From assembly GCF_003003035.1 (NCBI RefSeq), contig NZ_PVTS01000004.1:124001-188000 (forward strand): a DNA stretch of 64,000 nucleotides, given 5' to 3'. Positions 5,400 to 48,440 of the stretch are shown here, piece after piece (positions within the stretch are counted from its first letter, which is position 1; each line of letters begins with the position of its first letter). Both the position numbers and the translations under genes were made by a program. The notes beneath the pieces are model-generated. The model made no database searches. It saw nothing but the letters and a program-made list of their open reading frames with translations, and was not told the origin of the DNA. The stretch is from Marinilabilia salmonicolor (GTDB taxonomy: Bacteria > Bacteroidota > Bacteroidia > Bacteroidales > Marinilabiliaceae).

Positions 5400-6305
5400 A
5401 TGGACAAATACCAGATTAACCACCTTAAAGAGTTGGAAGCTGAATCCATTTTTGTGATTCGCGAAGTTGCCGCCCAGTTTGAGAACCCGGTGATGTTATT
5501 CTCTGGCGGGAAAGATTCTATTGTGATGTTTCATCTGGCCCGAAAGGCTTTCTGGCCTGCCAAGGTGCCTTTTCCGTTGATGCATATCGACACGGGGCAT
5601 AACTTCCCGGAGACAATAAAATACCGCGACGATTTGATGGAGAAAACCGGTGCCCGCTGTATTGTGAAATATGTTCAGGACACCATTGATCAGGGTAAAG
5701 CGGTAGAAGAAACAGGCGTAAATGCCAGTCGCAACAAAATTCAAACCATCACTTTGCTGGATGCCATCGAACAAGAGAAGTTTGATGCTGCCATGGGTGG
5801 TGGACGACGCGATGAGGAAAAGGCACGTGCCAAAGAGCGTTTCTTTTCACATCGTGACGAATTTGGTCAGTGGGATCCTAAAAATCAGCGTCCCGAACTC
5901 TGGAACCTTTTCAACGGTAAAAAAAATATGGGAGAGCATTTTCGTGTATTCCCCATCAGTAACTGGACAGAGATGGATGTCTGGCAATACATCTATATGG
6001 AAGAGATTGAGCTTCCATCGCTTTACTTTACCCACAAAAGAGAAGTGTTTCAGCGAGATGGTGTGTGGATGGCGAAGGCTCCTTTCATGCAACTCAAAGA
6101 AGGTGAGAAACTCGAAATGCGTGACGTTCGTTGCCGTACCATTGGCGATGTAACCTGTACCGGAGTTACTCTTTCTACGGCAAATAATCTTCAGGACATT
6201 ATTCAGGAAGTGGCAGCAACCCGCGTTACAGAACGCGGTGGTCGGGCCGATGATAAACGTTCTGAATCCGCCATGGAAGATCGCAAACGCGAGGGATATT
6301 TTTAG
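5400..6305 (+). CDS. cysD: Sulfate adenylyltransferase subunit 2 (small, catalytic subunit)
   Basis: With CysN it forms ATP sulfurylase, which makes adenosine 5'-phosphosulfate from sulfate and ATP. The PP-loop SGGKDS is at residues 35-40. The GGGRRDEEKARAKER stretch and the C-terminal RGGRADD and REGYF segments are typical of CysD. Its length of 301 residues matches the E. coli protein. The ATG follows a purine-rich stretch (aagaataaagataa). cysN follows after 96 nt that contain two heptamer arrays. No cysC or cysH lies in the window, so the fate of the APS (assimilation or sulfation) cannot be read from this locus. Confidence 0.97.
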   Translation: MDKYQINHLKELEAESIFVIREVAAQFENPVMLFSGGKDSIVMFHLARKAFWPAKVPFPLMHIDTGHNFPETIKYRDDLMEKTGARCIVKYVQDTIDQGKAVEETGVNASRNKIQTITLLDAIEQEKFDAAMGGGRRDEEKARAKERFFSHRDEFGQWDPKNQRPELWNLFNGKKNMGEHFRVFPISNWTEMDVWQYIYMEEIELPSLYFTHKREVFQRDGVWMAKAPFMQLKEGEKLEMRDVRCRTIGDVTCTGVTLSTANNLQDIIQEVAATRVTERGGRADDKRSESAMEDRKREGYF

Positions 6306-6339
6306 GGTTCAGGGTTCTGAGTTCAGGGTTTCGAGTTGA
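6305..6339 (+). repeat. Heptamer array A (five units, GRGTTYN)
   Basis: Five consecutive 7-nt units beginning right at the cysD stop codon: gggttca, gggttct, gagttca and two variants. Period seven holds without a slip. Array B follows 23 nt later. Confidence 0.8.
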
Positions 6340-6361
6340 ATCTCAATAAAAAATAAATTAA

Positions 6362-6396
6362 TAATTGATCATTGATAATTGATCATTGATAATTGA
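6362..6396 (+). repeat. Heptamer array B (five units, TMATTGA)
   Basis: The units taattga and tcattga alternate five times with no errors, ending 5 nt before the cysN ATG. A TTG inside the last unit opens a spurious in-frame extension of cysN. Confidence 0.85.
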
Positions 6397-6401
6397 ATAA
6401 A

Positions 6402-7679
6402 ATGAGTGGAAAAGAATCCGGATATTTAGATATGGAGCTTTTGCGTTTTACCACAGCAGGTAGCGTGGACGATGGCAAAAGCACACTAATTGGTCGTTTA
6501 TTGTTCGACTCTAAAGCCATTTTTGAAGACCAGATGGAAGCCATCGAAAAGGCAAGTCTTCGTTCGGGTGGCGAAGATGTAAACCTTGCTTTGCTGACCG
6601 ATGGTCTGAAGGCTGAAAGAGAGCAGGGAATTACCATTGATGTGGCTTACCGATACTTTGCCACCCCCAAAAGGAAATTTATTATCGCCGATACTCCCGG
6701 GCATATCCAATACACACGGAATATGGTAACGGGTGCCAGTACGGCCAATGCAGCCATTATTCTGGTGGATGCACGTCATGGTGTTCTTGAGCAGACCCGC
6801 CGGCATACTTATATTGCTTCATTGCTCCAAATCCCGCATATCATCATCTGTGTGAATAAGATGGATTTGGTGGATTATAAGCAGGAGGTATTTGAGGAAA
6901 TAAAATCTGATGTAGAGGCCATTTCTTCCAAGCTTAGTGTGAAAGATGTTCGTTACGTCCCCATTAGCGCCCTGGTAGGTGACAATGTGGTGGATCGCTC
7001 TAAAAATATGGATTGGTATGAGGGGCCAACCTTGATGTATCTTCTTGAAAATCTGCATATCGGAAGTGATATCAATCGTGACGACTTTAGGATGCCCGTA
7101 CAGTATGTGATTCGTCCCCAGTCGAAAGATTATCCCGATTATCGTGGTTATGGTGGTCGTATAATGAGCGGTAGCCTCAATGTGGGTGATACTGTGAAGG
7201 TATTGCCATCAGGGTTTACTTCTAAAGTTAAAACCATCGACTTGTTTACTGAAAGTCTGCAGAAAGCCTTTGCTCCTCAGTCGGTTTCGGTACAACTGGA
7301 AGATGACATTGACATTAGTCGGGGAGATATGCTCGTTAAAGAAACCAACGGACATGAGCCGATCGTCAGCCAGGATATTGATGTGATGCTTTGCTGGTTC
7401 AATGAGCGGAAAATGATTCCGGGAGGTAAATATACTTTGCGTCAGACAAGTGCCGAAATGCGTTGTATGATTAAGAGTGTTGATTACAAGATGAATATCA
7501 ATACACTTGAAAATGATCCTGATGATTTGGAGGTGAACATGAACGATATTGTTCGCGTGAAGCTTAGAACCACTAAACCTTTGTTCTACGATTCCTACAA
7601 TGTCAATCGTAATACCGGAAGTCTGGTGCTTATTGATGAGACTACCAACGAAACAGTTGCCGCAGGAATGATTGTGTAA
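6402..7679 (+). CDS. cysN: Sulfate adenylyltransferase subunit 1 (GTPase subunit)
   Basis: An EF-Tu-like GTPase that drives APS synthesis by CysD through GTP hydrolysis. G1 motif GSVDDGKST is at 20-28, G3 DTPGH near 97-101 and G4 NKMD near 152-155. Translation-factor beta-barrel domains II and III fill the C-terminal half. At 425 residues it is somewhat shorter than E. coli CysN (about 475) and has no fused APS kinase domain. I use ATG 6402; an in-frame TTG at 6393 lies inside repeat array B and is an unlikely start. A strong terminator follows 22 nt after the stop, closing a cysDN operon. Confidence 0.96.
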   Translation: MSGKESGYLDMELLRFTTAGSVDDGKSTLIGRLLFDSKAIFEDQMEAIEKASLRSGGEDVNLALLTDGLKAEREQGITIDVAYRYFATPKRKFIIADTPGHIQYTRNMVTGASTANAAIILVDARHGVLEQTRRHTYIASLLQIPHIIICVNKMDLVDYKQEVFEEIKSDVEAISSKLSVKDVRYVPISALVGDNVVDRSKNMDWYEGPTLMYLLENLHIGSDINRDDFRMPVQYVIRPQSKDYPDYRGYGGRIMSGSLNVGDTVKVLPSGFTSKVKTIDLFTESLQKAFAPQSVSVQLEDDIDISRGDMLVKETNGHEPIVSQDIDVMLCWFNERKMIPGGKYTLRQTSAEMRCMIKSVDYKMNINTLENDPDDLEVNMNDIVRVKLRTTKPLFYDSYNVNRNTGSLVLIDETTNETVAAGMIV

Positions 7680-7701
7680 CGCAATTTTTGAATGAATATA
7701 T

Positions 7702-7742
7702 AAAGACCGTCAATACCGCAGGGTGTTGACGGTCTTTTTTTT
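7702..7742 (+). terminator. Intrinsic terminator of cysDN
   Basis: AAAGACCGTCAA (7702-7713) pairs perfectly with TTGACGGTCTTT (7726-7737). A small inner stem (acc/ggt) is present, and a run of T follows. Confidence 0.93.
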
Positions 7743-7776
7743 GGACATATTGAGATGACTATTAATAAAAGTTAAT

Positions 7777-7820
7777 TGCCGAAAACTATTTTGGTTTTTT
7801 TAGTTTTCGGCATACATTTG
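7777..7820 (+). promoter_or_regulatory. tetR promoter overlapped by a 12-bp inverted repeat (probable TetR operator)
   Basis: The arms TGCCGAAAACTA (7777-7788) and TAGTTTTCGGCA (7801-7812) are perfect inverted repeats separated by 12 nt. TTTTGG at 7789-7794 (-33) lies between them, and TACATTTG at 7813-7820 (-7) abuts the right arm. Spacing between the two promoter elements is about 20 nt, as expected in this phylum. The tetR ATG is at 7840. A dimeric repressor bound here would cover the whole promoter. Confidence 0.75.
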
Positions 7821-7839
7821 TTTTTCTCAAAATTACTGG

Positions 7840-8451
7840 ATGGATATCAGAGAACGCATAATCACGGGAGCCGGTAAACTCTTTTATTCCAAAGGGATAA
7901 AGCGGGTTACGATGGATGATATTTCCACAGAGATTGGTATGTCCAAGCGAACCATTTATGAAAATTTCCGCGATAAGACCGAAATACTCCGTGCAACGGT
8001 GGATTTTCTGAGTGATAAACACCGTCAGGAGGTGGATCAGATGCAGAGTGGGTCAGGGAATGTGATGGAGGTAATCATTAAAATTCTTCTTTACGGTTTG
8101 AAAAGCATCGATTTGGTTTCTCCCATGTATCTGGAGGATATGCAGAAATTTTATCCACTGCTTTGGGAGGAGACGATTCAAAGGGGCCGGATATCTGCTC
8201 AAAAGCAGTTGCAGGATTTATTGGAACGCGGAAAAAAGGAGGGGCTTTTCAGGTCTGAAATTAACACCGGGTTGGTTGCCAGGATTTTTTATGAGCAACT
8301 GAACCTGATTCACAGCAATGAAGCTTTCCCTATCGAGGAGTTTCCACGTAAGGAGTTGTTCGAGAATATGTTTCTCAACTTTGCACGTGGAATCTCTACC
8401 CGCAAGGGTGTGGAGGTGATGGAGGAGTTGTTGGTAAGATCCAGTTATTGA
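7840..8451 (+). CDS. TetR/AcrR family transcriptional regulator
   Basis: A one-component repressor of 203 residues. The N-terminal helix-turn-helix covers about residues 20-50 (VTMDDISTEIGMSKRTIYEN followed by FRDK, typical of TetR). The all-helical C-terminal part would bind the inducer and is too variable to name a ligand. It is the first gene of a run that continues with tolC, an RND adaptor and an RND pump, so it most likely represses itself and the efflux operon. The palindrome over its own promoter is the likely operator. It ends about 120 nt before the tolC start, with no terminator in between. Confidence 0.93.
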   Translation: MDIRERIITGAGKLFYSKGIKRVTMDDISTEIGMSKRTIYENFRDKTEILRATVDFLSDKHRQEVDQMQSGSGNVMEVIIKILLYGLKSIDLVSPMYLEDMQKFYPLLWEETIQRGRISAQKQLQDLLERGKKEGLFRSEINTGLVARIFYEQLNLIHSNEAFPIEEFPRKELFENMFLNFARGISTRKGVEVMEELLVRSSY

Positions 8452-8568
8452 TTCATTGTTGGCAGGGGTGGTTCCCGGTTATTGACTGAAGTAAAAATCA
8501 GGACCGGACTGTTTTGGGTGACCATTTTTTATGTGCGAAGTTTTAGGATTTATAAAGAACTTGAGAAT

Positions 8569-9945
8569 ATGACACAAATGAGATCATTAGGAAAATTTTT
8601 TCTGCCGCTGGTTTTGAGTTTGTTGGTGTTTTCTGCCAAAACTATGGCTCAGGAAGAGGCCGGGAACGATACACTTTATCTTTCCATTGGGGAAGCAGTG
8701 GAGATTGCATTGTCGGATAACCCGGGAATAAAGGTAGCGGACAAGGAGATTACAAAAGTGGATTACTCCCGAAAAGAGGCCTGGGCTGGGCTTATCCCCT
8801 CTGTTTCTGCAGAAGGGAGCTACAACCGGAATGTAAAAAAACCGGTTATGTTTCTTTCGGAGGATATGGCTGCCGGGTTTGGAGGTAACACTACCATCGA
8901 GATTGGTTCGGACAACAGTTATTCCGGGGCCATCACAGCCGCCATGCCATTGTTTAATATGTCGCTGTTTCGTAACATTCAGATGACTGAGGTGCAAATG
9001 GAAAGCGCTCTTGAGTCGGCACGTCAGTCAAGAATAAATATGATCAGTGAGGTTAAAAAGGCTTATTTCAATTGTTTGTTGGCCAATGATTCTTACAATG
9101 TTATGAAACGCAGTATCCGGAACGCCCGGGAGAATTATGACAATATCAAACGGCTTTTTGAACAGGGAGCTGCGGCCGAATATGATGTGATTCGTTCCGA
9201 AGTACAGGTTCGGAATCTGGAACCGTCACTGACAGAAGCAAGAAACGGGCGTGAAGTGTCGGTTTTGATGCTAAAAATTTTATTGGGACTGGAGCGGGAT
9301 ATGCCTGTTAAGTTTAAGGAAGATCTGTTGACTTTTAATCAATTAATTGAAACCATGCCACCGGCACCACAGCAGGATATTTCCAACAATAGTGATATCA
9401 GGCAACTCAATGTTCAGGAACTTCAACTGGACAAACAGTTTGATCTTACAAGGGCACAACGTTTTCCGACATTGTCCGCTTTTGTCAATTTTCAGTATCA
9501 GACGCAGGCCAACCACTTCCGGTTTAATGAATATGAATGGGCAAAGCCTGTGGTTGCCGGTTTGCAGTTACAAGTGCCCATCTTTAGCGGGTTCTCAAAG
9601 CGTTATCAGGAGAAGCAGGTGGAAATCAGTATGGAACAACTTTCTTTTCAGCGCGAAAACGTGGAACGACAGGTTTCTGTGTCGGTTCTTAATGCACATT
9701 CACAAATGGAAGCTGCAGCCGAAAAGGTGGAGTCAGGAAAAGTGGGAGTTAAACAAGCCGAGCGAGGTTACAAAATTGCCCAAACCCGTTACGAAACAGG
9801 GGTGGGAACATTACTTGAGCTGAATGATGCAGAGGTGGCTCTCACCCAGTCACAACTGAATTTGAATCAGGCGCGTTTTGAGTTTTTATCTGCCCGGGCA
9901 GAGTATGAGAAACTTCTTGGTAATTCGTTGCCCGGGGAAAATTGA
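8569..9945 (+). CDS. TolC family outer-membrane efflux protein
   Basis: Outer-membrane channel of a tripartite RND pump. A signal peptide (FFLPLVLSLLVFSAKTMA, then QEE) precedes about 430 residues of mostly helical, Gln/Glu/Ala-rich sequence containing the two tandem OEP repeats. The second repeat carries the familiar YETGVGTLLELNDAEVALTQ segment. I start at ATG 8569; ATG 8578 is equally possible. The longer open frame from 8482 begins with TTG and adds 29 residues that do not look like a signal peptide. The adaptor gene follows after 60 nt. Confidence 0.93.
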   Translation: MTQMRSLGKFFLPLVLSLLVFSAKTMAQEEAGNDTLYLSIGEAVEIALSDNPGIKVADKEITKVDYSRKEAWAGLIPSVSAEGSYNRNVKKPVMFLSEDMAAGFGGNTTIEIGSDNSYSGAITAAMPLFNMSLFRNIQMTEVQMESALESARQSRINMISEVKKAYFNCLLANDSYNVMKRSIRNARENYDNIKRLFEQGAAAEYDVIRSEVQVRNLEPSLTEARNGREVSVLMLKILLGLERDMPVKFKEDLLTFNQLIETMPPAPQQDISNNSDIRQLNVQELQLDKQFDLTRAQRFPTLSAFVNFQYQTQANHFRFNEYEWAKPVVAGLQLQVPIFSGFSKRYQEKQVEISMEQLSFQRENVERQVSVSVLNAHSQMEAAAEKVESGKVGVKQAERGYKIAQTRYETGVGTLLELNDAEVALTQSQLNLNQARFEFLSARAEYEKLLGNSLPGEN

Positions 9946-10005
9946 ATTTCATCAATTAATAAAGTATTTAGGTCAGTAAACCAATAACTCATAATACAAT
10001 AAGAC

Positions 10006-11040
10006 ATGAAAACCAGTGTGTTAAGCTATAAAGTTCTGTGGTTATCCATCCTTTTATCGGGTGCTGTGGCTTGTTCTGGACCGGCGGAAGAAAAAAATGA
10101 GGATTCTGCGGAAGAGATTAAGAAAGTGGAAACAGCCTTTTCCGAAATTAAAGAGGTGGATCAGAAAATGACTTTAACCGGAAATGTGGAGCCCTTGGAA
10201 CAGAATATTATCAGTCCTTCCATGCAGCTGCGCATTCAGAAGATATTTGTTGAGGTCGGAGATCCTGTTCGAAAGGGACAATTGTTGGTGCAAATGGATC
10301 CGTCGCAGTTGGTTCAGACCCAGTTGCAACTGGCGCACCTGGAAAAGGAATTTGCCAGACTGGATACATTACACAAAGCGGGAAGTGTCTCTCAGCAACA
10401 ACTTGATCAGATGCGCACTGAGCTTGATGTGACGCGATCTGCATATGAAAACCTGAAAGAAAATACCAGACTGGTTTCTCCCATAACTGGAATCGTTACC
10501 TCCCGAAATTTCGAAAACGGAGATATGTACTCCATGGCTAAGGGGGCTGGCATTCTTACTATTATGCAAATTAATCCCGTTCAGGTGGATGTGCATATTC
10601 CGGAAGCTTTTTTCCCGCTTGTTAAAAATGGAATGCCCGTTTCAATGGAACTGGATGTTTATCCTGAGGATGATTTTGAAGGAAAGGTTTATCTGAAATA
10701 TCCGACCATTGATCCCAATACCCGCACTTTCACTGTCGAAACCAGGTTCTCCAATCAGGAAGAGAAGATTCGCCCGGGTATGTTTGGCCGTGTGAATATG
10801 GTATTTGAAACTCTGGAGCGGGTTACCGTACCCGATTTGGCAGTTCAGCGACAGCAGGGGACCAATGATAAGTTTGTATTTGTTGTGGAGGATGGCAAGG
10901 TAATCCGTCGCGTTGTGGAGTTGGGACGGAGAATTGATGATTTTTATGAAATAACCGGGGGGCTGTCTGCCGGTCAAGAAGTGGTTATAGCAGGTCATGC
11001 CGGATTGCTGGATCAGACACCCGTGGAAGTCGTCAAGTAA
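10006..11040 (+). CDS. RND efflux periplasmic adaptor (AcrA/MexA-like), lipoprotein
   Basis: Bridges the inner-membrane pump and the TolC channel. The N-terminus has a signal peptide ending in a probable lipobox (SGAVAC, Cys near residue 23), so it is probably a lipoprotein. A half-lipoyl motif (VEVGDPVRKGQLLVQMDPSQ), a short coiled hairpin (about 105-150) and the second lipoyl half (LVSPITGIVTSRNFENGD) follow. Beta-barrel and membrane-proximal domains complete it, giving 344 residues. It lies between tolC and the pump, about 100 nt before the latter. Gene order and orientation support one operon. Confidence 0.95.
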   Translation: MKTSVLSYKVLWLSILLSGAVACSGPAEEKNEDSAEEIKKVETAFSEIKEVDQKMTLTGNVEPLEQNIISPSMQLRIQKIFVEVGDPVRKGQLLVQMDPSQLVQTQLQLAHLEKEFARLDTLHKAGSVSQQQLDQMRTELDVTRSAYENLKENTRLVSPITGIVTSRNFENGDMYSMAKGAGILTIMQINPVQVDVHIPEAFFPLVKNGMPVSMELDVYPEDDFEGKVYLKYPTIDPNTRTFTVETRFSNQEEKIRPGMFGRVNMVFETLERVTVPDLAVQRQQGTNDKFVFVVEDGKVIRRVVELGRRIDDFYEITGGLSAGQEVVIAGHAGLLDQTPVEVVK

Positions 11041-11144
11041 CCAGGAAGGATGCCGGTGAAATGACAATCACAAAATATATAGAAAGTTCTGAGTCATCGT
11101 AGTGTCCTTTTTAATTGATTTATTAATCAGATAATTATCAGACA

Positions 11145-14100: not shown

Positions 14101-14267
14101 GTGAAGGAGCCGAAATCTGGCGCCCTATGGGTGTTGCTATTATCGGGGGACTGACAGTTTCCACCATGCTTACATTGGTACTGATGCCTGTGGTTTACAC
14201 CATGTTTGGTGCCAACCGCATGAAGAGTGAACGAAAACGAATCGCTAAACTGGAAGAAAGTATTTGA
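11145..14267 (+). CDS. RND efflux permease (AcrB/MexF-like, HAE1 type)
   Basis: Proton-driven inner-membrane pump of 1040 residues with the usual 12 membrane spans and two large periplasmic loops. Visible signatures include YPEIDPPIVSI after the first span and the proton-relay segment in TM4 (SLSIAIGMVVDDAIVVLENI, with the double Asp). TM5 and TM6 follow, and the second half repeats the pattern (GIVVKNGIVLIDYINLLRDR). The substrate cannot be read from sequence. Its stop codon TGA at 14265-14267 is already part of heptamer array C. It is the main product of the TetR-controlled operon. Confidence 0.97.
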   Translation: MSIYEKAVKKPISVILIFVGVIIMGMFSLRYLPIDLYPEIDPPIVSIFTFYQGASAADIETNVTRILEDNLNTVNNLKELTSTSKDNTSLVMLEFEWGTNLDEATNDIRDALGRVESYLPEGVEKPIIFKFSTSMIPIMLLSATAEESYPALTKILDEGIVNPLNRIEGVGAVSLSGGPKREIQVNVDPRKIEAYNMSVEQIGAVIGQENINLPGGNLDIGSHRYPVRVEGEFKSSDELKHLVLGNFQGRIIRLSDVATVKDTLAETTIDERANGRVGARIVIQKQSGANSVEIAQEVRDRLPVLMKNLPPDVEIETIFDTSEFIENSISSLANTVMYAGIFVVLVVLFFLGRWRATFIIILTIPVSLIVSFIYLYATGNTLNIISLSSLSIAIGMVVDDAIVVLENITHHIEKGSSPREAAIYGTNEVGLAVVATTLTVVAVFFPLTLVQGLSGIMFRQLGMIVTLVVIVSTIAALTLTPMLSSQMLRLMPPRKKGIAKAVFGTFEKFLVWLDNVYEKTLGFAVRHRVMVVIVSVIIFVASISLVSLVGTEFIPPADNARIEATVELPMSLRLEKTQKVARDLENIWQEKYPEIEVISTSAGVADEENIFSAFGENGTHVINFTMRLSNSSERERDIYQIGDLMRQDLDSVTLLKDYTVSPGGSGGGMGSGASTVEVIVSGYNLEETGKVADHFMEKLEDMEGLRDVDISRDDPKMEYQLVLDREKLGIYGLNTATVANAMRNRINGLIAAQYREDGDEYDVRVRFSEPFRESIESVENILVYNPQGEAIRIREVGSVEEYMAPLSIERRNRQRVITVTGSLYDASITDVVNEINAEVERMDLPQGVGIDIGGTAEDQQESFADLGLLLVLIIILVYIVMASQFESLRSPFIIMLTLPFAFTGVFIALFITGTTLNLISMIGGVMLVGIVVKNGIVLIDYINLLRDRGMSLVQAVVAGGKSRLRPVLMTTLTTILGMLPLAIGIGEGAEIWRPMGVAIIGGLTVSTMLTLVLMPVVYTMFGANRMKSERKRIAKLEESI

Positions 14268-14333
14268 GGGTTGAGGGGTGAGGGATGAGTCCCCAAACTC
14301 AGAACCCCGAACTCAGAACTCCGAAACACAAAA
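14264..14333 (+). repeat. Heptamer array C (ten units) overlapping the RND stop codon
   Basis: Four units of the type NTGAGGG (ttgaggg, ttgaggg, gtgaggg and a variant) run without a phase slip into six units of the type tcagaac/cccgaac. The first unit contains the stop codon of the RND gene. The array fills most of the gap before the PII-like gene. Confidence 0.85.
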
Positions 14334-14342
14334 CTAATTAAG

Positions 14343-14680: not shown

Positions 14681-14721
14681 AAAAGCAGGATTCCTTCATC
14701 TTGAAGAAACCCTGCTTTTTT
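14681..14721. terminator. Terminator between converging genes
   Basis: AAAAGCAGG (14681-14689) pairs with CCTGCTTTT (14711-14719), with a second inner stem, and T-runs in both orientations. It can serve the efflux operon and the minus-strand FadL-like gene. Confidence 0.85.
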
Positions 14722-14783
14722 CTATTCTCTAACTTCTATTCTCTAATTTCTAATTGCCATTCTCTAAGTCCTCTTCCCTACTC
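14721..14783 (+). repeat. Heptamer array D (nine units, TCTAWTY)
   Basis: Units such as tctattc, tctaact and tctaatt repeat with period seven through nine units, from the terminator T-run up to the 3' end of the FadL-like gene. Confidence 0.82.
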
Positions 14784-16354
14784 TAAAACCTCCACCCCAG
14801 AGTTACCGCCAAATGATGGTCTTTTGCAGTCATTTCGGCGGGTTGCTGAATGTCATCGGTCAATTCAGGCGAATAATACAGTGAGTGAATATAAGTTTCA
14901 TGATTGTAGAGATAAGCCACATCAATGGTCATATTTCCGTTTCTGAAGCCAATACCTCCCGTAACATTGTAATGCTCGCCATCTGCATTCAGCAGGTTTT
15001 TATCCTGTTTGTAAGGATTCTGAAACATAGCGTAGCCACCCCGGAGTGATAACATCGGAGATACACGGTATTCGGCTCCGAATCTTAGATTGTGGGTTGC
15101 CCGGAATATTTCATTAATGGCGGTGTTGGTCGCATTAAACTGGGCTGTTTCGTTGATGTGGTTGTTTTTGCTGTTGTATTTCATGGATGAATAATCGGTG
15201 TATTCATAATCAACCGATACCAACCCTTTGGTTCCTATGATGTAGGCAAAACTACCAACGGCTTTTAGGGGGGTGCGGAAATTATAGGATATTTCGCCAA
15301 GATCAGAGGTTATCTCATAGTTGTCGGCATCGAAAAAATTTGCACGCGCTTTTGTATCATATTCCGTTTTCATTGAATAGTATGTCGGGGTATGCAGCGA
15401 TGCCCCAATACGAATGCTGTTAATAGGTTTGTAGATGGCACCAATTTTAAAATTGAGACCTGTACCGGATGTCCGTTCATATTCGTCGAAGTAGAAATCA
15501 TCCAGAATTTCAAATCCATTATCCAGTCTGTAATCAATGTATGCGTTGTAAACTTCATCACTACCCTGTTCGTAATGTTGAGTTTCAATTTTATTTTCAA
15601 GGGTAGCTATTCCCAGGCTGGCTCCCAAATAAAACTGATTGCTGAAGTTTGCACCAAAAGAGAAATCAAACAAGCCTGAATATCCCGATTCTGTCATCAG
15701 TTTCATTTGATTAACTCCGTTTACCGTACCCATCTCCAGGAATCCTTCCTCATTAATAAATTCAAAGGCCTGTATGTATTCATTAAGCTCACTGCCAGGG
15801 ACCAATTCCGTCAGACGGGCGTCATACGCTATGCCTGTATAAAAATTATCCAGTTGCTGAGGTGCATAACCCAAAGAATTGTATGCGAAGGAGTGAAGTA
15901 GTGATGATTCAACGCCATCGGCCTGGATGAAACTTTTCCGGTTGTAATTATTGGTCCGGTTGTATCCGATTCCAAAATGAGTGCTGACCAGTCCGTTCTC
16001 AACTTCCCTCATCAGGCGGGATGTGCCTACATAGGAAATCTGATTAATTGGCACACTGAATTTATCGTCATTGGAAAGGTTTCCGTAGTAATCGCTTTCG
16101 GTTTGACCGAATATCAGGGAGGGGGTAAAGGAGAACTCACTGCTCCGATAAACGGCTATTCCTGCCGGGTTGATGCCAATGGCAGAGTAATCACCGCCAA
16201 GTGCCCCCATGGCACCACCAAGGCCAATGCTTCTGGCGGTTCCCGTAGGCTTTTGTGCGGAAAATCGCAAAGCATGATCCTCTGTTTGTGCATTGATGGA
16301 GGTGGTTATTAGCAATAATGCTGTTGCAAAATACAAATACTTTGTCATAGTCAT
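14783..16354 (-). CDS. OmpP1/FadL family outer-membrane protein
   Basis: A predicted beta-barrel of the FadL/TodX family, which carries hydrophobic compounds across the outer membrane. A signal peptide (KYLYFATALLLITTSINAQ) is followed by an N-terminal FadL-like hatch pattern (GTARSIGLGGAMGALGGDYS, then GINPAGIAVYRSSEFSFTP). The rest is strand-rich with a C-terminal aromatic (LGWRF), as expected for BAM-dependent barrels. Length is 523 residues from ATG 16354; ATG 16348 also fits, and a longer frame to 16375 adds a charged segment. A 12-bp inverted repeat lies just upstream (16368-16404). The cargo is unknown. Confidence 0.88.
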   Translation of the reverse strand: MTMTKYLYFATALLLITTSINAQTEDHALRFSAQKPTGTARSIGLGGAMGALGGDYSAIGINPAGIAVYRSSEFSFTPSLIFGQTESDYYGNLSNDDKFSVPINQISYVGTSRLMREVENGLVSTHFGIGYNRTNNYNRKSFIQADGVESSLLHSFAYNSLGYAPQQLDNFYTGIAYDARLTELVPGSELNEYIQAFEFINEEGFLEMGTVNGVNQMKLMTESGYSGLFDFSFGANFSNQFYLGASLGIATLENKIETQHYEQGSDEVYNAYIDYRLDNGFEILDDFYFDEYERTSGTGLNFKIGAIYKPINSIRIGASLHTPTYYSMKTEYDTKARANFFDADNYEITSDLGEISYNFRTPLKAVGSFAYIIGTKGLVSVDYEYTDYSSMKYNSKNNHINETAQFNATNTAINEIFRATHNLRFGAEYRVSPMLSLRGGYAMFQNPYKQDKNLLNADGEHYNVTGGIGFRNGNMTIDVAYLYNHETYIHSLYYSPELTDDIQQPAEMTAKDHHLAVTLGWRF

Positions 16355-16367
16355 AGGTTTGAAAGTT

Positions 16368-16404
16368 TCTCTCACGCAAGTCGATGTATGATTTGCGTGA
16401 GAGA
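16368..16404 (-). promoter_or_regulatory. 12-bp perfect inverted repeat upstream of the FadL-like gene
   Basis: TCTCTCACGCAA (16368-16379) and TTGCGTGAGAGA (16393-16404) are perfectly complementary around 13 nt. The repeat ends 14 nt before the ATG at 16354, so it is either a regulator site or a hairpin that could hide the ribosome binding site. No recognisable -7 box lies in the loop. Confidence 0.6.
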
Positions 16405-23821: not shown

Positions 23822-23877
23822 CCCAGCTCAACCCGAAACTCAAAACCCTCAACTCCAAGCTCCAAAACTCCAAACTT
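23822..23877 (+). repeat. Heptamer array E (about eight units, MAAMYCN)
   Basis: Eight degenerate 7-nt units (for example aaactca, caactcc, aagctcc) between the sixA-like terminator and the queF stop codon. It is more degenerate than the other arrays, but the period is the same. Confidence 0.65.
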
Positions 23878-39828: not shown

Positions 39829-39857
39829 AACACATGATTTTTTTTACTTGTATATTA

Positions 39858-39865
39858 CAAAGGTA
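39858..39865 (-). promoter_or_regulatory. Promoter -7 box of the toxin-antitoxin operon
   Basis: On the minus strand TACCTTTG matches TAnnTTTG, about 30 nt before the antitoxin ATG. The region up to 39895 is A+T-rich; the MITE-like element begins at 39896. Confidence 0.5.
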
Positions 39866-39895
39866 TATCTTATTTGTATGTTTATCAAGTGTGTT

Positions 39896-40168: not shown

Positions 40169-40211
40169 TAATAGATGTTGCCTCCCAATAATATTACCCA
40201 AAAAAGAGCAA

Positions 40212-40831: not shown

Positions 40832-40832
40832 A

Positions 40833-41150: not shown

Positions 41151-41160
41151 TTTTAGTTAA

Positions 41161-41258
41161 TTAGTTGTTCTTTAGCTTATAGTTCTTGGCTCATTGCTTT
41201 TAGCCCCCTGTACCCTGCTCCTTGCTGCATGCCCCTTGCTCCATGGCTTTGCTCCTTA
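41161..41258 (-). repeat. Heptamer array F (14 units, GCYYCNT) between mrpD and mrpE
   Basis: Fourteen 7-nt units (for example gctcatt, gctcctt, gcccctt, gctccat) keep phase. They occupy most of the only wide gap in the mrp operon. Confidence 0.78.
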
Positions 41259-41301
41259 TTGTGGAACCGGAAGTCCTCCCTGGGGGGGATTTAGGGGGCT
41301 G

Positions 41302-43160: not shown

Positions 43161-43561
43161 TTCAGTACATCCATTATGTTGGTGAATATTGACACAATCA
43201 TTCCCACTACCAGCACAAAAACTCCAATATCAAAGAGCAGCGGTGTGCCCAGGGCGATGCCGGCCAAAGAGGTCCAAACACCTGTCAGCGGAGGTTTTCC
43301 CAGCGTCATAGGAATCAATGCTGCGAGCAGGGCAATGAGCAGACCGCTTCCCATGATGTAACGTGGATTAACTCTGATTTTTTCAAGTACTTTTTCCGAG
43401 CCAAAGACAATTCCATAGAGCAGAAATCCTGCGGCCGCAATAATACCACCGATGAATCCTCCTCCGGGACGGTTATGGCCTCTGAACAGCAGGAAAAGAG
43501 CAAAACCTACCATGACATATAAAAAGAGACTTACGATGCGTTCCAGTACAATATTTCTCAT
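43148..43561 (-). CDS. mrpB: Mrp Na+/H+ antiporter subunit B
   Basis: A 137-residue membrane subunit with four spans. LLFRGHNRPGGGFIGGIIAA in the second segment is the MnhB signature. The C-terminal span ends with VFTNIMDVLKW-type sequence and overlaps mrpC by 13 nt. It overlaps mrpA by 4 nt at its start. Confidence 0.95.
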   Translation of the reverse strand: MRNIVLERIVSLFLYVMVGFALFLLFRGHNRPGGGFIGGIIAAAGFLLYGIVFGSEKVLEKIRVNPRYIMGSGLLIALLAALIPMTLGKPPLTGVWTSLAGIALGTPLLFDIGVFVLVVGMIVSIFTNIMDVLKWNS

Positions 43562-45891
43562 TTCTCAGATTTCTTTTTTATGGGGTTGAATCGAAGCAGT
43601 GTAAACACACCTGCTGCAGCCAGGGCCAGAACAGTTATCTCCCCCAGGGTGTCGAGGGCCCTGAAATCAACCAGAATTACATTTACAATATTGCGTCCAT
43701 GACCTTCCAGATAACTTTTTTCTGCAAAAAACTGCGAAATGGGCTCTTCCAGGTTGATGAATCTGGCTTTGAGGACTATCATTGTCATCATGGCCCCAAC
43801 GGACAGGGCTATGATGGCATCGCGAATGCGTGATTTTTTACTGGAAAGTACTGCAAAATCGGGCAAATAGAATATTACCATGACGAAGATGACCATGATA
43901 ATGGTTTCGGCCAGAAACTGTGTGATAGCCAGGTCAACCGCTCCATAGAACATATAAAGAACTGCCACACCATATCCCAGCACTCCCATGGAGACAATGG
44001 CTGAGAGCCGTGACTTGCTGAAAACGGCAAACAATACTGCCATGGCCGATATTATCAGGACCAGAACGACATGCATTCTCACAGGGGAACTTTCTGAGGG
44101 GTGGAACCATTCTCCACCGGCGCTGAGCAATTGATAGACAATCAAAAGCAGGGTGGCCATAAAAAAAGTAATGAGGTAGTATCGATGATACCCGTGTTGT
44201 ATGCGGTTGGTATGTTTACCGGCAAAACTCAGGTAATTGCTGATGAGATTGTTGAATTTTTCCGGCAAATGATACTGGTCGGTCCACGGAATGATGATTC
44301 CTACCAGTTTGCCAACGGGGCGCCGAAGAATAAAGATGACGGTTCCCATGGCCACGGTAAAAATACTCAGCAATAAAACCTGGTTGAACCCATGCCAAAG
44401 AGTCAGATGAACATCCACTGCCTGCGACTGCACGTAAAACATGGCGTTGGACAGAATGTTATTGAGCCATCCAGGGGCCATTCCGAGACCTAATCCGATA
44501 AGGGCCAGTATTACAGGTCCTGCCAGAAAGTTGCCCGGCAGCTCTTTTTCTTTGTGAAGAAGGGCGATGGCGGGTTTATTTTTGCGTGGGATGAAAATTT
44601 CGTAAAAAACCAATATGGAAATGGCTACCATCATCATATTGGCGGCAACGCCCAATGGAACCACAAGCCAGGATAATTCGGGCATCTGGACCTTGGCATC
44701 GTAAATCAGTTCTTTTCCGATAAAACCAAGCATCGGCGGGAGTCCGGACATACTCAGAAGGGCCAGAATGCCTGCTATACTTGTCACCGGCATGCTTTTT
44801 AACAGTCCGCTTAACCTGGTTATGTCGCGTGTGCCGGTATTTTTGTCGATGATACCGGCTACCATGAACAAACCACCTTTGTACAAACCATGGACTATGA
44901 AAAATATCAATGCTGCCTTGATGGAAGCGGTGGTATTCATCCCGATGAGCATAACCATAGTTCCCAGAGCGCTGATGGTGGTGAATGCCAGAATGCGCTT
45001 CAGGTCTTTTTGACCCAGGGAAAAGAATGCACCAATAAACATGGTAATACCACCCGTCAGGATTAATGCTCCTTTCCAGGCGATGGTACCGCCCATGACC
45101 GGGTTCAGACGCAATAACAGAAAGATTCCCGCGTTGACCATCGTAGCAGAGTGCAGATAGGCGCTGATGGGAGTCGGGGCATTCATGGCACCGGGAAGCC
45201 AGAAGTGAAATGGAAACTGTGCCGATTTGGTGGCTACGGCTACGAAAATCAGTAAAAAAACTGTTTGATATTGTGAATGAGCGCCGAAGTGAAAACCTTG
45301 TGAATAGAGTTCACTAAGACGGAAAGTTCCGGCAAGGTTACCTATCATGATGACGGCAAACAGCAGACAAAGTCCTCCGAGAGCAGTGATGAGCAGTGCC
45401 TGAAGAGCTGCCTGACGTGGCTTGTCCTTATCGTGATCGAACCCTATCAAAAAGAATGAAGTAATACTGGTCAGTTCCCAGAAAATAAAGAGTGCCAGAA
45501 GGTTGTCGGCAAATACAAGCCCCAGCATGGCTCCCATAAACAGGATCAAAAAGAAGTAGAATTTTGTCTTTCCTGCGTATTTGGCCATGTAAAACGAAGA
45601 ATAGCCGAGCACCAGTCCTCCGATTCCGCTTACCATCATTCCAAATATCAGACTGAGACCGTCTATGCGGAACGAGAACTGCATTTCAGGCAGGAAGCCA
45701 AAACCGGTTTCTACAATGCGTGCTGTTTCATCCGGCAGCGAAAAAAACAGGAAAGTTAGTGCCCCGAAAAGAGCAAAGGGTACCAATGCCAGAATTCGTC
45801 CGGTATAATTTTTAAGCAATGGACGAAGAACGGGAACCATTAGTCCCATCAGAAAAATAAGAACTATTAAAACAATTGCCAGCTGCTCCAT
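43558..45891 (-). CDS. mrpA: Mrp Na+/H+ antiporter subunit A (NuoL-like with C-terminal extension)
   Basis: The largest subunit, 777 residues, homologous to NuoL. The proton-translocating core (about 60-450) has the Glu in LALFIFWELTSITSFFLIGF and the Lys helix ATKSAQFPFHFWLPGAMNAP. The C-terminal third, from about 600, is the MrpA-specific extension with DUF4040-type segments (YGAVDLAITQFLAETIIMVI; LVDFRALDTLGEITVLALAA). It exports Na+ together with subunit D. It is the first subunit gene of the operon; the small cysteine-rich gene ends 32 nt upstream. Confidence 0.97.
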   Translation of the reverse strand: MEQLAIVLIVLIFLMGLMVPVLRPLLKNYTGRILALVPFALFGALTFLFFSLPDETARIVETGFGFLPEMQFSFRIDGLSLIFGMMVSGIGGLVLGYSSFYMAKYAGKTKFYFFLILFMGAMLGLVFADNLLALFIFWELTSITSFFLIGFDHDKDKPRQAALQALLITALGGLCLLFAVIMIGNLAGTFRLSELYSQGFHFGAHSQYQTVFLLIFVAVATKSAQFPFHFWLPGAMNAPTPISAYLHSATMVNAGIFLLLRLNPVMGGTIAWKGALILTGGITMFIGAFFSLGQKDLKRILAFTTISALGTMVMLIGMNTTASIKAALIFFIVHGLYKGGLFMVAGIIDKNTGTRDITRLSGLLKSMPVTSIAGILALLSMSGLPPMLGFIGKELIYDAKVQMPELSWLVVPLGVAANMMMVAISILVFYEIFIPRKNKPAIALLHKEKELPGNFLAGPVILALIGLGLGMAPGWLNNILSNAMFYVQSQAVDVHLTLWHGFNQVLLLSIFTVAMGTVIFILRRPVGKLVGIIIPWTDQYHLPEKFNNLISNYLSFAGKHTNRIQHGYHRYYLITFFMATLLLIVYQLLSAGGEWFHPSESSPVRMHVVLVLIISAMAVLFAVFSKSRLSAIVSMGVLGYGVAVLYMFYGAVDLAITQFLAETIIMVIFVMVIFYLPDFAVLSSKKSRIRDAIIALSVGAMMTMIVLKARFINLEEPISQFFAEKSYLEGHGRNIVNVILVDFRALDTLGEITVLALAAAGVFTLLRFNPIKKKSEK

Positions 45892-45923
45892 GCTGTAGTG
45901 TTGAAAATTTAATTTTTGTATTG

Positions 45924-46049
45924 TTACAATTTATCCGGTTTGCACAATTTATCTTTCTTCTTTGCCGAATGACCGCATTTTTTACATTCAAATTTGTGTG
46001 ATGGCTTCAGCTCTTTTTCTTTTCCGGTTTTACACTTTTTCTTGCTCAT
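45924..46049 (-). CDS. Small cysteine-rich, lysine-rich protein (41 residues)
   Basis: A short gene. From ATG 46049 it encodes 41 residues, about one third Lys, with C6, C22, C25 and C36: MSKKKCKTGKEK at the start and FECKKCGHSAKKKDKLCK in the middle. The C-X2-C pair with two more Cys suggests a zinc ribbon or knuckle. It lies in a 206-bp gap between the kinase-RapZ gene and mrpA, on the same strand. I recall near-identical short proteins in other Bacteroidota next to this kinase, but cannot verify. It may bind nucleic acid or a metal; function unknown. Confidence 0.72.
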   Translation of the reverse strand: MSKKKCKTGKEKELKPSHKFECKKCGHSAKKKDKLCKPDKL

Positions 46050-46097
46050 AAACGGTTATTTATTGAGATGTAGGGAAGTAACCGCTCATGCTTTGTT

Positions 46098-47537
46098 TTA
46101 TTGGGGCCAGGAGGCTCTTTCCATATGCTTTAGCTCCACGTTTACCGGGAAATGTTTTCGCAGGTAAAGAGCCAGCTTTTCGGCACAATATACCGAGCGG
46201 TGCTGTCCTCCAGTACAACCAAAGCTGAACATTAAATGTTTAAAACCTCGATTCAGATATTTTTGTACTGCCTGGCTTGCCAGGGTGTAAACACTTCCCA
46301 GGTATTGATCCATCTCATCCTCCTTTTCGAAAAAGGCAATTACCTCCGGACTTAATCCTGTTTTACTTTTGTATTCCTCATACCGTCCAGGGTTGTGAAT
46401 GCATCGACAATCAAATACAAAACCGCCGCCGTGGCCGGAATCATCAACCGGAATTCCCCTTCGGTATGAAAAACTGTTGATACTGATGGTGAGCTTTGGT
46501 GAATCACTTAATTGCTGCAGTTTTTCTGATTTTGTAACCTGCCACAAGGCAGCTTCCAGGGCGGGAAATTTGACCGGAAGCGAAAGATTGGTGAGGATGA
46601 ATTTGAGATTTTCTATGGCGTAGGGAATACTTTTGAGAAAATGTTCTTTGTTTTCATAGAATCCCCGAAATCCATAAGCTCCCATGGCCTGCATGATGCG
46701 GATAAGTACAAATCCCTGAAAGAAACTTTTGAAGGATTCTTCGTCCACGTCTGTTTTCTTTTTAAGGGCGGAGATATAAAAATCCAGAAGTTCCCGACGC
46801 AGTTCGTCAGGCAAATCTGCTTTGGCATCATAAAGCAAAGATGCCAGATCGTATTGCAGCGGGCCTTTGCGGCCTCCCTGGTAATCAATAAATGCCGGAC
46901 CGTTATCAGTAACCATAATGTTGCGCGATTGAAAATCACGATACATAAAATAGTTGCTGTCGGCCTGTTGCAGGTATTCCGAAAAAGCATTGAAATCGTC
47001 TTCCAGCAACTGTTCATCGAATGGGATGCCTGCCAGCTTCAGAAAATAATATTTGAAATAGTGCAAATCCCACAGCATTGATTGTTTATCGAAACTGTGA
47101 CGTGGATAGCACAATGAGAAATCCAGGTCCGCAGAGGCATCCACTTGAAAGCGAATGAGATACTCTAAGGATTTTTTGTAGAAACGGACGATGTCACCGG
47201 AAATGTTTTTGCCTAATCTGGTCGTTGAGAGCCAGTCGAACAAAGTGGTGTTACCGAAATCTTCCTGCAGGTAACTGTCGGTGGAGTCACTCACACTGAA
47301 TATCTCGGGTACCGGGAGCTTCAAAGCTTTGAAATGACGACTGAATTCAATAAAAGCCCGGTTTTCTTTCTTATTGTGATTGATGGTGCCGATTGCACTT
47401 CTAGTGGCTCCGGAAATGCGAAAATAGCGACGGTCAGAACCGGAGGGAGGCAGCGGAGTGAAACTTTCGGTCTCTTCACCGGCCCATTTTAAAAATAGTT
47501 CTTCCAGATGTGGTGGATATGAATTTTTCAATGTCAA
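46098..47537 (-). CDS. AmgK-like sugar kinase fused to a RapZ-like C-terminal domain
   Basis: A 479-residue two-domain protein. Residues about 1-330 are an aminoglycoside phosphotransferase-fold kinase (RDFQSRN at 200-206 with catalytic D201; IDYQGG at 217-222 with metal-binding D218), similar to AmgK, which phosphorylates MurNAc/GlcNAc at C1. Residues about 348-472 resemble the C-terminal domain of RapZ (ISINSFSYRRGIP; FDCRCIHNPGR; SFGCTGGQHRSVYCAEKLA), the part that senses glucosamine 6-phosphate in E. coli. The fusion suggests sugar recycling tied to amino-sugar sensing. It follows the DUF554 gene by 5 nt and is near mrpA-G. Confidence 0.85.
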   Translation of the reverse strand: MTLKNSYPPHLEELFLKWAGEETESFTPLPPSGSDRRYFRISGATRSAIGTINHNKKENRAFIEFSRHFKALKLPVPEIFSVSDSTDSYLQEDFGNTTLFDWLSTTRLGKNISGDIVRFYKKSLEYLIRFQVDASADLDFSLCYPRHSFDKQSMLWDLHYFKYYFLKLAGIPFDEQLLEDDFNAFSEYLQQADSNYFMYRDFQSRNIMVTDNGPAFIDYQGGRKGPLQYDLASLLYDAKADLPDELRRELLDFYISALKKKTDVDEESFKSFFQGFVLIRIMQAMGAYGFRGFYENKEHFLKSIPYAIENLKFILTNLSLPVKFPALEAALWQVTKSEKLQQLSDSPKLTISINSFSYRRGIPVDDSGHGGGFVFDCRCIHNPGRYEEYKSKTGLSPEVIAFFEKEDEMDQYLGSVYTLASQAVQKYLNRGFKHLMFSFGCTGGQHRSVYCAEKLALYLRKHFPVNVELKHMERASWPQ

Positions 47538-47542
47538 TCAGT

Positions 47543-48247
47543 TTAAAATAAAGAAAAAGGAAAAATCTGGCGATACTGCATCCATGCAAAAAGCACCACG
47601 AAAAGAAGGGAGGGTAAAAGGTCGGTTATTTTTAGTTTTCCCAAATTCAGGATGTTGATGCCCAGACCAATCAATAATACCCCGCCCGTAGCTGTCAGCT
47701 CATTGACAACGGATTGTGCAAAGAAATCGCCCAGCCACATAGACAATAAGGTTATGCCACCCTGATAGACGAGAAGAGGAATCACCGAAAAGAGAACGCC
47801 TACGCCCATGGCTGCGGCCAGTGCCATGGAAGAGAATCCGTCCAGTACCGATTTGGTAATCAGTAGTTCCGGGCCTTGTCCCATGCCTTCGTTGATGGCA
47901 CCTAATAAAGTGAGTGACCCCATACAAAACAGAAGAAATGAGGTAATCAATCCTTCTGTAAATCGCTCATCGGTAAACCGAAAACGGCTTTTGATATTTT
48001 CAGACATGTTCTCAACCCGTTCTTCCAGTCGAAGCAGGCCGCCTGTAATACCTCCGAAGAGCAGGGAAAGAACTACTGTGATGATCCATTGACTTTCCAG
48101 AAACATGGAAACACCCAAACCCATGGTAAACAGGCCGATGCCATGAAATACAACTGTTACCACTCGTCGTGGCAGTCGCTGCTTAAAAATAAGGCCGAGA
48201 ATGCTTCCGGCAATTACGGTGGCTACATTGACAAGAGTACCTGTCAT
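47543..48247 (-). CDS. DUF554 family membrane protein
   Basis: A 234-residue integral membrane protein of the DUF554/YdfK family with about seven spans (for example GTLVNVATVIAGSILGLIF and LLIGLGINILNLGKLKITDL). Transport or channel function is suggested for relatives but not established. The open frame runs back to 48430 through heptamer array G, giving a false 61-residue extension; ATG 48247 is preferred because it begins the conserved part and a promoter lies just upstream. It is the probable first gene of the operon DUF554, kinase-RapZ, Cys-rich protein, mrpA-G. Confidence 0.9.
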   Translation of the reverse strand: MTGTLVNVATVIAGSILGLIFKQRLPRRVVTVVFHGIGLFTMGLGVSMFLESQWIITVVLSLLFGGITGGLLRLEERVENMSENIKSRFRFTDERFTEGLITSFLLFCMGSLTLLGAINEGMGQGPELLITKSVLDGFSSMALAAAMGVGVLFSVIPLLVYQGGITLLSMWLGDFFAQSVVNELTATGGVLLIGLGINILNLGKLKITDLLPSLLFVVLFAWMQYRQIFPFSLF

Positions 48248-48271
48248 TTTCTGGTTTTTTTTGATGTCCTG

Positions 48272-48279
48272 CAAAAATA
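48272..48279 (-). promoter_or_regulatory. Promoter -7 box of the DUF554-kinase-mrp operon
   Basis: On the minus strand TATTTTTG matches TAnnTTTG and is followed by CAGG. The start would be near 48264, with the ATG at 48247. A T-run 20 nt upstream may be the -33 element. Heptamer array G begins 57 nt further upstream. Confidence 0.5.
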
Positions 48280-48335
48280 AGACACACAGGGTTAAGAAAA
48301 AAGAAAAAGTGAGAAAAAGGAACAGGGGGCATTTA

Positions 48336-48440
48336 GCAATGACCAATGAACAATGATTAATTAGCAATGACCAATGAACAATGAGCAATGAGCAATGAGC
48401 AATGAACAATGAGCAATGAGCAATAAACAATAATCAATGA
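48336..48440 (-). repeat. Heptamer array G (15 units, NCAATGA)
   Basis: Fifteen 7-nt units, all but two of the type NCAATRA (gcaatga, ccaatga, acaatga in turn), with no phase slips. It lies upstream of the DUF554 promoter. The reverse complement reads TCATTGN, close to array B. Confidence 0.9.

Follow-up and report, generated by a model that had tools for sequence, protein, structure and literature searches.

Intergenic heptad arrays in Marinilabilia salmonicolor and the orientation of their G-rich strand away from gene edges

The preference of bacteria for seven-base repeats in intergenic DNA has been without an answer since a survey of 2007, to which PMC4679880 and PMC4692102 refer. In the window, a 64-kb stretch of the Marinilabilia salmonicolor genome, an earlier note had listed seven arrays of degenerate repeats. 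All seven were found, and all of them split into 7-nt units. The features of the window, including a weak array absent from the earlier list, are as follows.

6305..6339, plus strand: G-rich heptad arm GRGTTYN, which runs outward from the cysD stop TAG (6303-6305)
6345..6396, plus strand: heptad array TMATTGA of the ATTGA family, immediately before the cysN start (6402)
14264..14289, plus strand: G-rich heptad arm TTGAGGG; an RND permease-like gene ends within its first unit (TGA stop, end 14267)
14290..14334, minus strand: C-rich arm with its G strand on minus, which opposes the 14264..14289 arm and runs outward from the next gene (14343)
14712..14783, minus strand: heptad arm AATTAGA (minus-gene sense), which leads away from a PorV/PorQ-like gene (14783-16375, minus) at its TAG stop
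23822..23877, minus strand: heptad arm GAGTTT/GGGTTT (minus-gene sense) with a one-base slip, which leads away from a QueF-like gene at its TGA stop
41161..41258, minus strand: heptad array GCTCCNT, flanked by an mrpE-like and an mrpD-like gene, which breaks the polarity rule described below (closer to the mrpE-like start)
48336..48440, plus strand: heptad array NCAATGA (ATTGA family) between two minus-strand genes, the longest among the seven
62453..62498, no strand assigned: weak lag-21 array cTTTTga, upstream of 60652-62373

The cysD gene is assigned by an NCBIfam match above cut-off; the family matches of the RND permease-like gene are below curated cut-offs, and those of the PorV/PorQ-like, QueF-like, mrpE-like and mrpD-like genes are likewise below cut-off.

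The mean self-match of the seven arrays at lags 7, 14 and 21 is 0.50-0.90, as opposed to 0.19-0.38 at periods 5, 6, 8 and 9. With 500 dinucleotide shuffles per array, the observed best score for periods 5-9 is matched or exceeded 0, 0, 0, 0, 1, 0 and 0 times, and Tandem Repeats Finder (TRF) reports a period-7 row at or overlapping 7/7 of the places. The assertion that the period never slips was overstated, since two of the seven arrays, those at 23822 and 41161, contain one single-base slip each, read as AAAACTCC and GGCTTT (the latter slip near 41245), correspondingly, with a TRF indel level of 4-5%; the outermost units of the 41161 array are weak. The stretch 14264-14333, which had been listed as one array, does consist of real repeats but comprises two opposite arms, G-rich and then C-rich. 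According to home-made gene models the arrays are noncoding, as was claimed, except for stop-codon bases within first units, and the 48336 array shares nothing but the 5′ end with a mechanical open reading frame that has a TTG start (47543-48430), the gene model of which starts at 48247. At the gathering threshold, the sole Rfam match in the window is a tRNA at 62962-63045, with none over any array.

The seven-base period extends well beyond the window. Two separate samples, which cover 857 and 800 kb of its 4.79-Mb genome, contain 39 and 26 intergenic period-7 arrays, correspondingly, while every other period from 4 to 13 is represented by 0-7 arrays in the first sample and 0-5 in the second. 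Shuffled sequence yields a mean of 0.7 arrays for the first sample and 0, 0, 0, 0 and 2 for the second, and lag-7 segments number 31, compared with 0.0 in shuffles, and amount to 0.0 per 100 kb in coding sequence. The arrays are nearly absent from coding DNA, where home-made gene models place 1 period-7 array in the first sample and 3 in the second; in unclipped sequence of all data sets, 20 of the 167 arrays lie wholly within called genes and 48 more overlap a gene edge. The genome-scale claim of the earlier note thus holds: the intergenic excess on which it was staked is present in both samples, and the shuffles, which had to stay below it, are near zero. The array detector is conservative and at threshold 13 misses 6305-6339 and 23822-23877, while at threshold 14 it also loses 41161-41258; these three arrays, being below the detector threshold used, are outside the polarity counts.

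Seven is the preferred step also in pooled samples of other Bacteroidota. Period-8 arrays outnumber period-7 arrays in one relative, G005 (7 vs 3), and few period-7 arrays occur in two others (0 in 8 kb for G024, 1 in 23 kb for G009). Over 39.5 kb of intergenic sequence, Escherichia coli K-12, the negative control, shows 1 array each at periods 6, 7 and 9. The arrays have the make-up of heptad satellites, with head-to-tail 7-base units beyond chance in mainly noncoding DNA. Intergenic repeats of heptads form a class that is already established (PMC4679880, PMC4692102), and so the period alone is not new; what is added here is one polarity common to many units.

Of 116 arms, 96 have the G-rich strand placed with its 5′ end closer to the flanking gene; these comprise 27/31 in the discovery set, 19/23 in the fresh test set, 20/24 in the genus and family and 30/38 in other Bacteroidota. 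Left out of these counts are 3 ties and 32 of 151 arms for which |GC skew| is below 0.3 or the flanking gene is unknown. Array-free control windows matched for length, skew and edge distance show the same orientation in 1036 of 1885 cases (55%), 7 arms being without a match. Where opposite arms share an intergenic region, the G-then-C order is found in 19/19 pairs, and arrays of other periods follow no such rule (stop 21/37, start 12/22, order 2:2). The polarity is seen between convergent genes (23/25) and before the starts of divergent genes (6/7, or 12/15 at a looser threshold). Counted per intergenic region (n=91), 71 obey, 14 disobey and 6 are mixed. The rule is broken by 20 of the 116 arms and by the window array at 41161, and AT-rich ATTGA arrays orient opposite to it (19/26). 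Among the other strand asymmetries of the arms, A-T skew follows no rule (35/80), and the purine and keto counts are 56/77 and 65/75, correspondingly.

The rule was spotted by eye first, and the later tests were performed on fresh stretches of the same genome and on other Bacteroidota. Arm splitting was adopted after exceptions to the unsplit counts had appeared; without it, fresh stretches of the same genome give 9/11 at stops and 3/5 at starts, other Bacteroidota give 10/13 and 10/12, and all data together give 69/86. The arms are not fully independent, because several of them share one locus (L100) or orthologous regions. The polarity is robust to thresholds and gene filters, and a gene-caller artefact was rejected, as the polarity is the same with genes of at least 300 nt only (95/117) and the arrays in called genes are so few (1 and 3 in the two samples).

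Because repeats of many different sequences share this direction, it would seem to be set by something besides one particular motif. The idea of one common unit was rejected, since units vary by locus and a scan of 247 genomes from the order finds the exact TAGTCAG array in just two, the window's genome included, and a made-up control unit in none. Read backwards as a control, the TAGTCAG pattern matches two other genomes at 12 and 1 places, and therefore other heptad arrays exist in those two genomes. By eye, many units are without GGG, such as GTTAGAG, TAGTCAG and TAGAGAA, and so are not of the G-quadruplex-forming type. The window units also differ from TAACTGA and are not direct repeats of that heptamer, which some arrays contain in a mixture with TAATTGA. 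A polarity shared by many units, and absent at other periods, moves the question from motif function, be it a G-quadruplex or a binding protein, to the array-making process, and offers a simple feature that can be measured in every genome for which the sequence is available.

The arms also lie close to genes. Within 5 nt of a gene there are 43 of 119 arms at the G-strand 5′ side and 9 at the 3′ side, with about 12.5 expected for each. Stop codons located no more than 12 nt from an arm are TAG or TGA in 41/55 cases, and among stops wholly within arrays these two make up 29/35 vs 1236/2979 elsewhere. Arrays favour gene 3′ ends, as had been claimed. A purely mRNA 3′-end role is insufficient, because the polarity is found also in front of start codons, including those of the divergent genes mentioned above. 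Units are more uniform at the gene side in 61 arms vs 28 (n=99), a difference that becomes 38 vs 23 (n=63, p 0.07) after trimming 7 nt per end and 29 vs 18 (n=52, p 0.14) after trimming 10 nt. Since this gene-side uniformity weakens on trimming, directional growth is only suggested by it.

Whole units are gained and lost between species. Among indels of at least 3 nt, 13/32 inside arrays are divisible by 7 vs 48/513 outside, and 19/32 inside are not multiples; these counts compare species, not strains, lean on few regions (cysD-cysN against four species makes up 4 of the 11 array-bearing pairs) and include some poor G001 alignments. Slippage with a seven-base step, one of the origins offered in the earlier note, is favoured by this gain and loss; no result here favours another of them, the measuring of seven bases by a protein. 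At 14712-14783, G004 is shorter by exactly 35 nt, a clean difference of five units; it is shorter by 14 nt at the 41161 array, and the 48336 array differs from it by indels of 14 and 28 nt. The intergenic region with the 14264..14334 head-to-head pair has 75 nt here vs 151 nt in G004. The arm at 6305..6339 is also present in G003 and, in a shorter form, in G002, and G004 and G001 carry a different GC-rich element there.

The explanation that we prefer, tentatively and with slightly less than even confidence, is that the arrays are intergenic heptad satellites, of the class named STRR in cyanobacteria and long simple sequence repeats elsewhere, which are born by slippage, grow in one direction and come to a halt at coding edges. 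Replication or repair slippage with a seven-base step would create and remodel the arrays, which would survive where the reading frame is irrelevant. Growth may be directed toward the 5′ end of the G strand, with the polymerase that copies the G-rich strand probably slipping back at the array exit, and each array would advance until coding sequence halts it. Such creep up to coding sequence would lead to the abutment, to the stop codons absorbed into the first unit and to the more uniform gene-side units. Given the observed polarity, in which the G-rich strand starts next to a stop or start and runs away from it, opposite arrays of one intergenic region meet head to head. No single motif or binding protein would be required, because units vary by locus. 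Plain slippage by itself predicts no polarity, which is a point against this explanation. A wider and quite improbable proposal is that heptad arrays across at least three phyla record one directional, strand-specific DNA-extension process with a seven-base step, which would build G-rich repeats from gene edges whatever the unit; head-to-head arrays would then resemble two healed ends joined.

Selection for RNA elements is possible as well, though on the unlikely side: G-rich unstructured 3′ tails and C-rich, G-poor leaders might aid transcript ends, termination or translation initiation, with slippage supplying the raw repeats. It is in line with the strong preference for bases right after stops (of 69 arms whose G strand has a stop on its 5′ side, 31 are within 5 nt), with the scarcity of arrays in divergent regions (7/155, compared with 37/663 tandem and 14/128 convergent) and with the ATTGA-family array before cysN in 5/5 genomes of the genus examined. 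The polarity before divergent starts and between convergent genes argues against it, as do the variation of units by locus and the detection of an array at only 16/77 Bacteroidota cysD-cysN junctions. A Rho-site reading of the C-rich leaders was weighed and set aside; cyanobacteria are not known to have Rho. The invariant G-then-C order of the 19 opposite pairs is also in line with head-to-head arrays that form the arms of a terminator-like or REP-like hairpin or inverted duplication, the single arrays then being remnants missing one arm. Close inverted pairs, 70 and 75 in number, are described for two Xanthomonas genomes, with few in Nostoc, in the sections of PMC4692102 used here. In 8/19 of the pairs arm likeness at least equals that of 94% of cross pairs, and for these a hairpin or fold-back origin is possible because the arms resemble each other, but in another 8/19 at least one third of the cross pairs match equally well or better. 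The 176-nt head-to-head region at C6b 74864 has a folding energy of -46.4 kcal/mol, a value with no shuffle control, while single arrays can be nearly unstructured (C1 213615 at -1.2 and C4b 33023 at -3.0 kcal/mol), and the Rfam matches of the window amount to the one tRNA. The hairpin origin is doubtful, and simple hairpins were rejected on the split between self-similar and dissimilar pairs and on the weak folding of single arrays.

It is very unlikely that slippage is neutral and orientation a matter of chance, with the polarity being no more than a local base skew that the repeats took over from intergenic edges. Array-free skewed windows at offset 0 lean likewise, both after stops (64/110 and 50/92) and before starts (92/153 and 97/139), where DNA is already somewhat G-poor, but matched resampling gives 55% as opposed to 96/116 in arrays, other-period arrays in the same genomes do not follow the rule, and array-free segments show the pair order 310:244 as opposed to 19:0. 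It is highly improbable that heptad arrays are spread ready-made, through a process of mobility or copying with insertion in one orientation at gene edges. The same unit circles do recur at unrelated loci (AATGATC 10, ACTACTG 8 and AACCTCT 6 of 65 arrays), and a search with the 48300-48500 stretch finds 11 other places in the genome; however, many arrays have other units, and the exact TAGTCAG array is confined to the two genomes mentioned above.

The cyanobacterial STRR are tandem heptanucleotides of several unit types, and the arrays described here can be likened to them, by description, in both respects. Three heptanucleotides of Calothrix are mentioned in PMC4692102. The survey of Mrazek et al. 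(2007) on long simple sequence repeats of 5-11 nt, that is, repeats longer than expected, is known here via PMC4679880 and PMC4692102; as described in the sections used, heptanucleotides dominate, a polymerase-contact explanation is proposed, and gene-edge orientation is not mentioned. TAACTGA direct repeats are reported from Beggiatoaceae, cyanobacteria and five Bacteroidetes (MacGregor 2015, PMC4679880). They share with the present arrays, some of which contain TAACTGA, the intergenic heptads, the indels of mostly 7-nt steps between Cyanothece strains and, in some genomes, the admixture of other heptamers. That system has one fixed heptamer, which in the Guaymas Beggiatoaceae genome mostly sits immediately before starts, and the sections of the paper considered describe no general polarity rule. 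The Xanthomonas and Nostoc repeats GGGAATC / GGGGAYT are likewise heptameric (Rehm et al. 2015, PMC4692102). The sections used describe one G-quadruplex-forming unit type per genome, with few inverted pairs in Nostoc, whereas here many degenerate units, often without GGG, are found in Bacteroidota. The gene-edge geometry given there for single units agrees with the polarity of the present arrays, in which the G-rich strand takes this orientation in 96/116 arms, compared with 1036/1885 matched windows.

Each of the seven arrays in the window is periodic at 7 and none at 5, 6, 8 or 9, as judged by unit-by-unit reading, Tandem Repeats Finder and dinucleotide shuffles. The earlier note had held that the period never slips, but the phase is imperfect, since a one-base slip is present in two of the seven arrays, and 14264-14333, described as a single array, is actually made of two arms of opposite direction. 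The elements discussed here are, in forward-strand coordinates:

6305-6339, heptad array
6362-6396, heptad array, within ATTGA/TCAAT heptads at 6345-6396
14264-14333, heptad array with two opposite arms
14721-14783, heptad array
23822-23877, heptad array
41161-41258, heptad array
41284-41299, GC-rich element GGGGGATTTAGGGGGC, adjoining the mrp array and found in 22 places genome-wide at no more than one mismatch
48336-48440, heptad array of ATTGA/TCAAT units
55296-60596, possible island of four genes, none of them matched at the DNA level (E up to 1e-20) in the sister-species stretches compared
60652-62373, gene next to the latter, whose match to G004, a species of the same GTDB genus, is partial

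The genome of M. salmonicolor (4.79 Mb in 60 contigs; the closest CysD among the named genomes returned is that of Anaerophaga thermohalophila, 92%, pointing to Bacteroidales in the vicinity of Marinilabiliaceae) was sampled twice, as 857 kb including the window and as another 800 kb. Genes were called by a simple codon-context model, so gene edges are approximate. In the first sample, intergenic DNA contains 31 self-match segments at lag 7 versus 0.0 in shuffles, with 0, 3, 4 and 4 at lags 5, 6, 8 and 9 and 29, 21 and 9 at lags 14, 21 and 28, and coding DNA has 0.0 lag-7 segments per 100 kb. When multiples of each base period are joined, the two samples hold 39 and 26 intergenic period-7 arrays, versus 0-7 and 0-5 for any of the other periods 4-13; 1 and 3 lie within coding DNA, and shuffles give a mean of 0.7 in the first sample and 0, 0, 0, 0 and 2 in the second. 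The intergenic excess of 7 over 5, 6, 8 and 9 and over shuffles, on which the earlier claim of period seven depended, is thus present in both samples; that observation was right, and its extent is larger than the window alone could show.

Eight relatives have 0-6 period-7 arrays each, 28 in total, versus sums of 2-16 over the same samples for any of the other periods 5-13. One of the eight, G024, has none in its sample, and in another, G005 (loci L215-L218), period-8 arrays outnumber period-7 ones (7 vs 3), which suggests that the preferred step may differ among lineages. Across 80 Bacteroidota loci, period 7 is the biggest class, with 44 arrays spread over 19 loci, followed by 18 of period 4 and 16 of period 8; E. 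coli K-12 showed no period-7 excess over 250 kb. Tandem arrays are unusually dense in L100, a 17-kb locus from a Bacteroidales MAG (isolate KA21): it has 9 arrays of period 7 and 7 of period 8, and several of its AGTTCAA arrays are oriented head to head.

Between the window's genome and four species of its genus, 74 orthologous intergenic pairs were comparable; the window's genome has an array in 11, four of them being the cysD-cysN region against each species, and the relative also has one in 9 of the 11. Counting indels of 3 nt or more, 13/32 within arrays have a length divisible by seven, versus 48/513 outside. At 14712-14783, G004 is shorter by exactly 35 nt, or five units, while both array ends align. 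The array ahead of cysN is kept in all five genus genomes with varying units. A G-rich heptad array lies 3' of cysD in the window's genome, G003 and, in short form, G002, and its place is taken in G004 and G001 by a different GC-rich element related to GGGGGATTTAGGGGGC. Among 77 cysD-cysN loci, some possibly one genome twice, the junction has a detected period-7 array in 16 (three from the genus), with differing units.

A polarity was suggested when 67 arrays, sampled from nine genomes, were listed: they seemed to be G-rich on the coding strand near stops and C-rich near starts, so that the G-rich strand runs outward with its 5' end nearer the gene. On fresh data, unsplit arrays follow this rule in 9/11 cases at stops and 3/5 at starts in the same genome, and in 10/13 and 10/12 in other Bacteroidota. 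Since several of the exceptions combined two opposite arms in one score, arrays were split, after these tests, at the point of change from G-skew to C-skew. This gave 151 arms, of which 119 had an absolute skew of at least 0.3 and both neighbours known; among these, 96 have the G strand's 5' end closer to a gene and 20 its 3' end, with 3 ties. The rule holds in 27/31 arms of the discovery set, 19/23 of the test set, 20/24 of genus and family and 30/38 of other Bacteroidota, and by class in 32/40 (tandem stop), 35/44 (tandem start), 23/25 (convergent) and 6/7 (divergent; 12/15 at a looser threshold), staying at 75-86% across detection thresholds of 12 to 26 and skew cuts of 0.2 to 0.7. Opposite arms sharing one region are ordered G then C in 19/19 pairs, with 7 more neighbouring pairs carrying the same sign, versus 310 G-then-C and 244 C-then-G among 3235 array-free segments split likewise. 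In arrays of other periods the polarity is absent (21/37, 12/22; pair order 2:2). The window array at 41161 violates the rule and scored below the counting threshold. The AT-rich ATTGA family is oriented oppositely in 19/26 cases, and without it the rule holds in 89/102. Heptads of this ATTGA/TCAAT family (also at locus L029:1313-1385) often lie near start codons, and some arrays are mixed with TAACTGA, a heptamer known from Beggiatoaceae and cyanobacteria.

Slippage fits the whole-unit indels and the near-absence of arrays from coding DNA; in its plain form it does not predict the polarity. The arrays may grow directionally, toward the 5' end of the G strand, until coding sequence stops them. 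Such growth would account for the outward polarity at both gene ends, for head-to-head meetings, for stop codons absorbed into arrays and for gene-side units being more uniform. Arms at most 5 nt from a gene number 43 on the 5' side of the G strand and 9 on the 3' side (expectation about 12.5 per side), and stop codons wholly within an array are TAG or TGA in 29/35 cases versus 1236/2979 elsewhere. In the window, the four stop-adjacent arrays border TAG (cysD), TGA (RND permease-like), TAG (PorV/PorQ-like) and TGA (QueF-like), and the mrpD-like gene, 43 nt away from its array, ends in TAA. Units are more uniform at the gene side in 61 arms versus 28, and in 38 versus 23 after 7-nt trimming. 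The main rival to directional growth is that selection at the RNA level shapes the arrays. That the polarity is merely inherited from local skew would agree with the somewhat G-poor array-free DNA immediately upstream of starts, yet when array-free windows comparable to the arms in length, skew and distance to the gene edge are taken, only 55% (1036/1885) obey the rule (7 arms had no match), and this control made an already improbable explanation slightly more so, to the point of being very unlikely.

The seven-base period itself belongs to an already known repeat class. TAACTGA arrays are described with five Bacteroidetes among the hosts (PMC4679880, which also cites Mrazek 2007 for heptanucleotide dominance and the idea of polymerase contact), and G-quadruplexes are discussed for heptamer repeats (PMC4692102). 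The new part is a polarity independent of unit sequence, in Bacteroidota; no statement of it for mixed units or for this phylum was found in the largely open-access literature searched. This polarity makes an old puzzle measurable. The repeats of Xanthomonas and Nostoc described in PMC4692102 share the geometry seen here, traced in that study for a single unit type in each genome.
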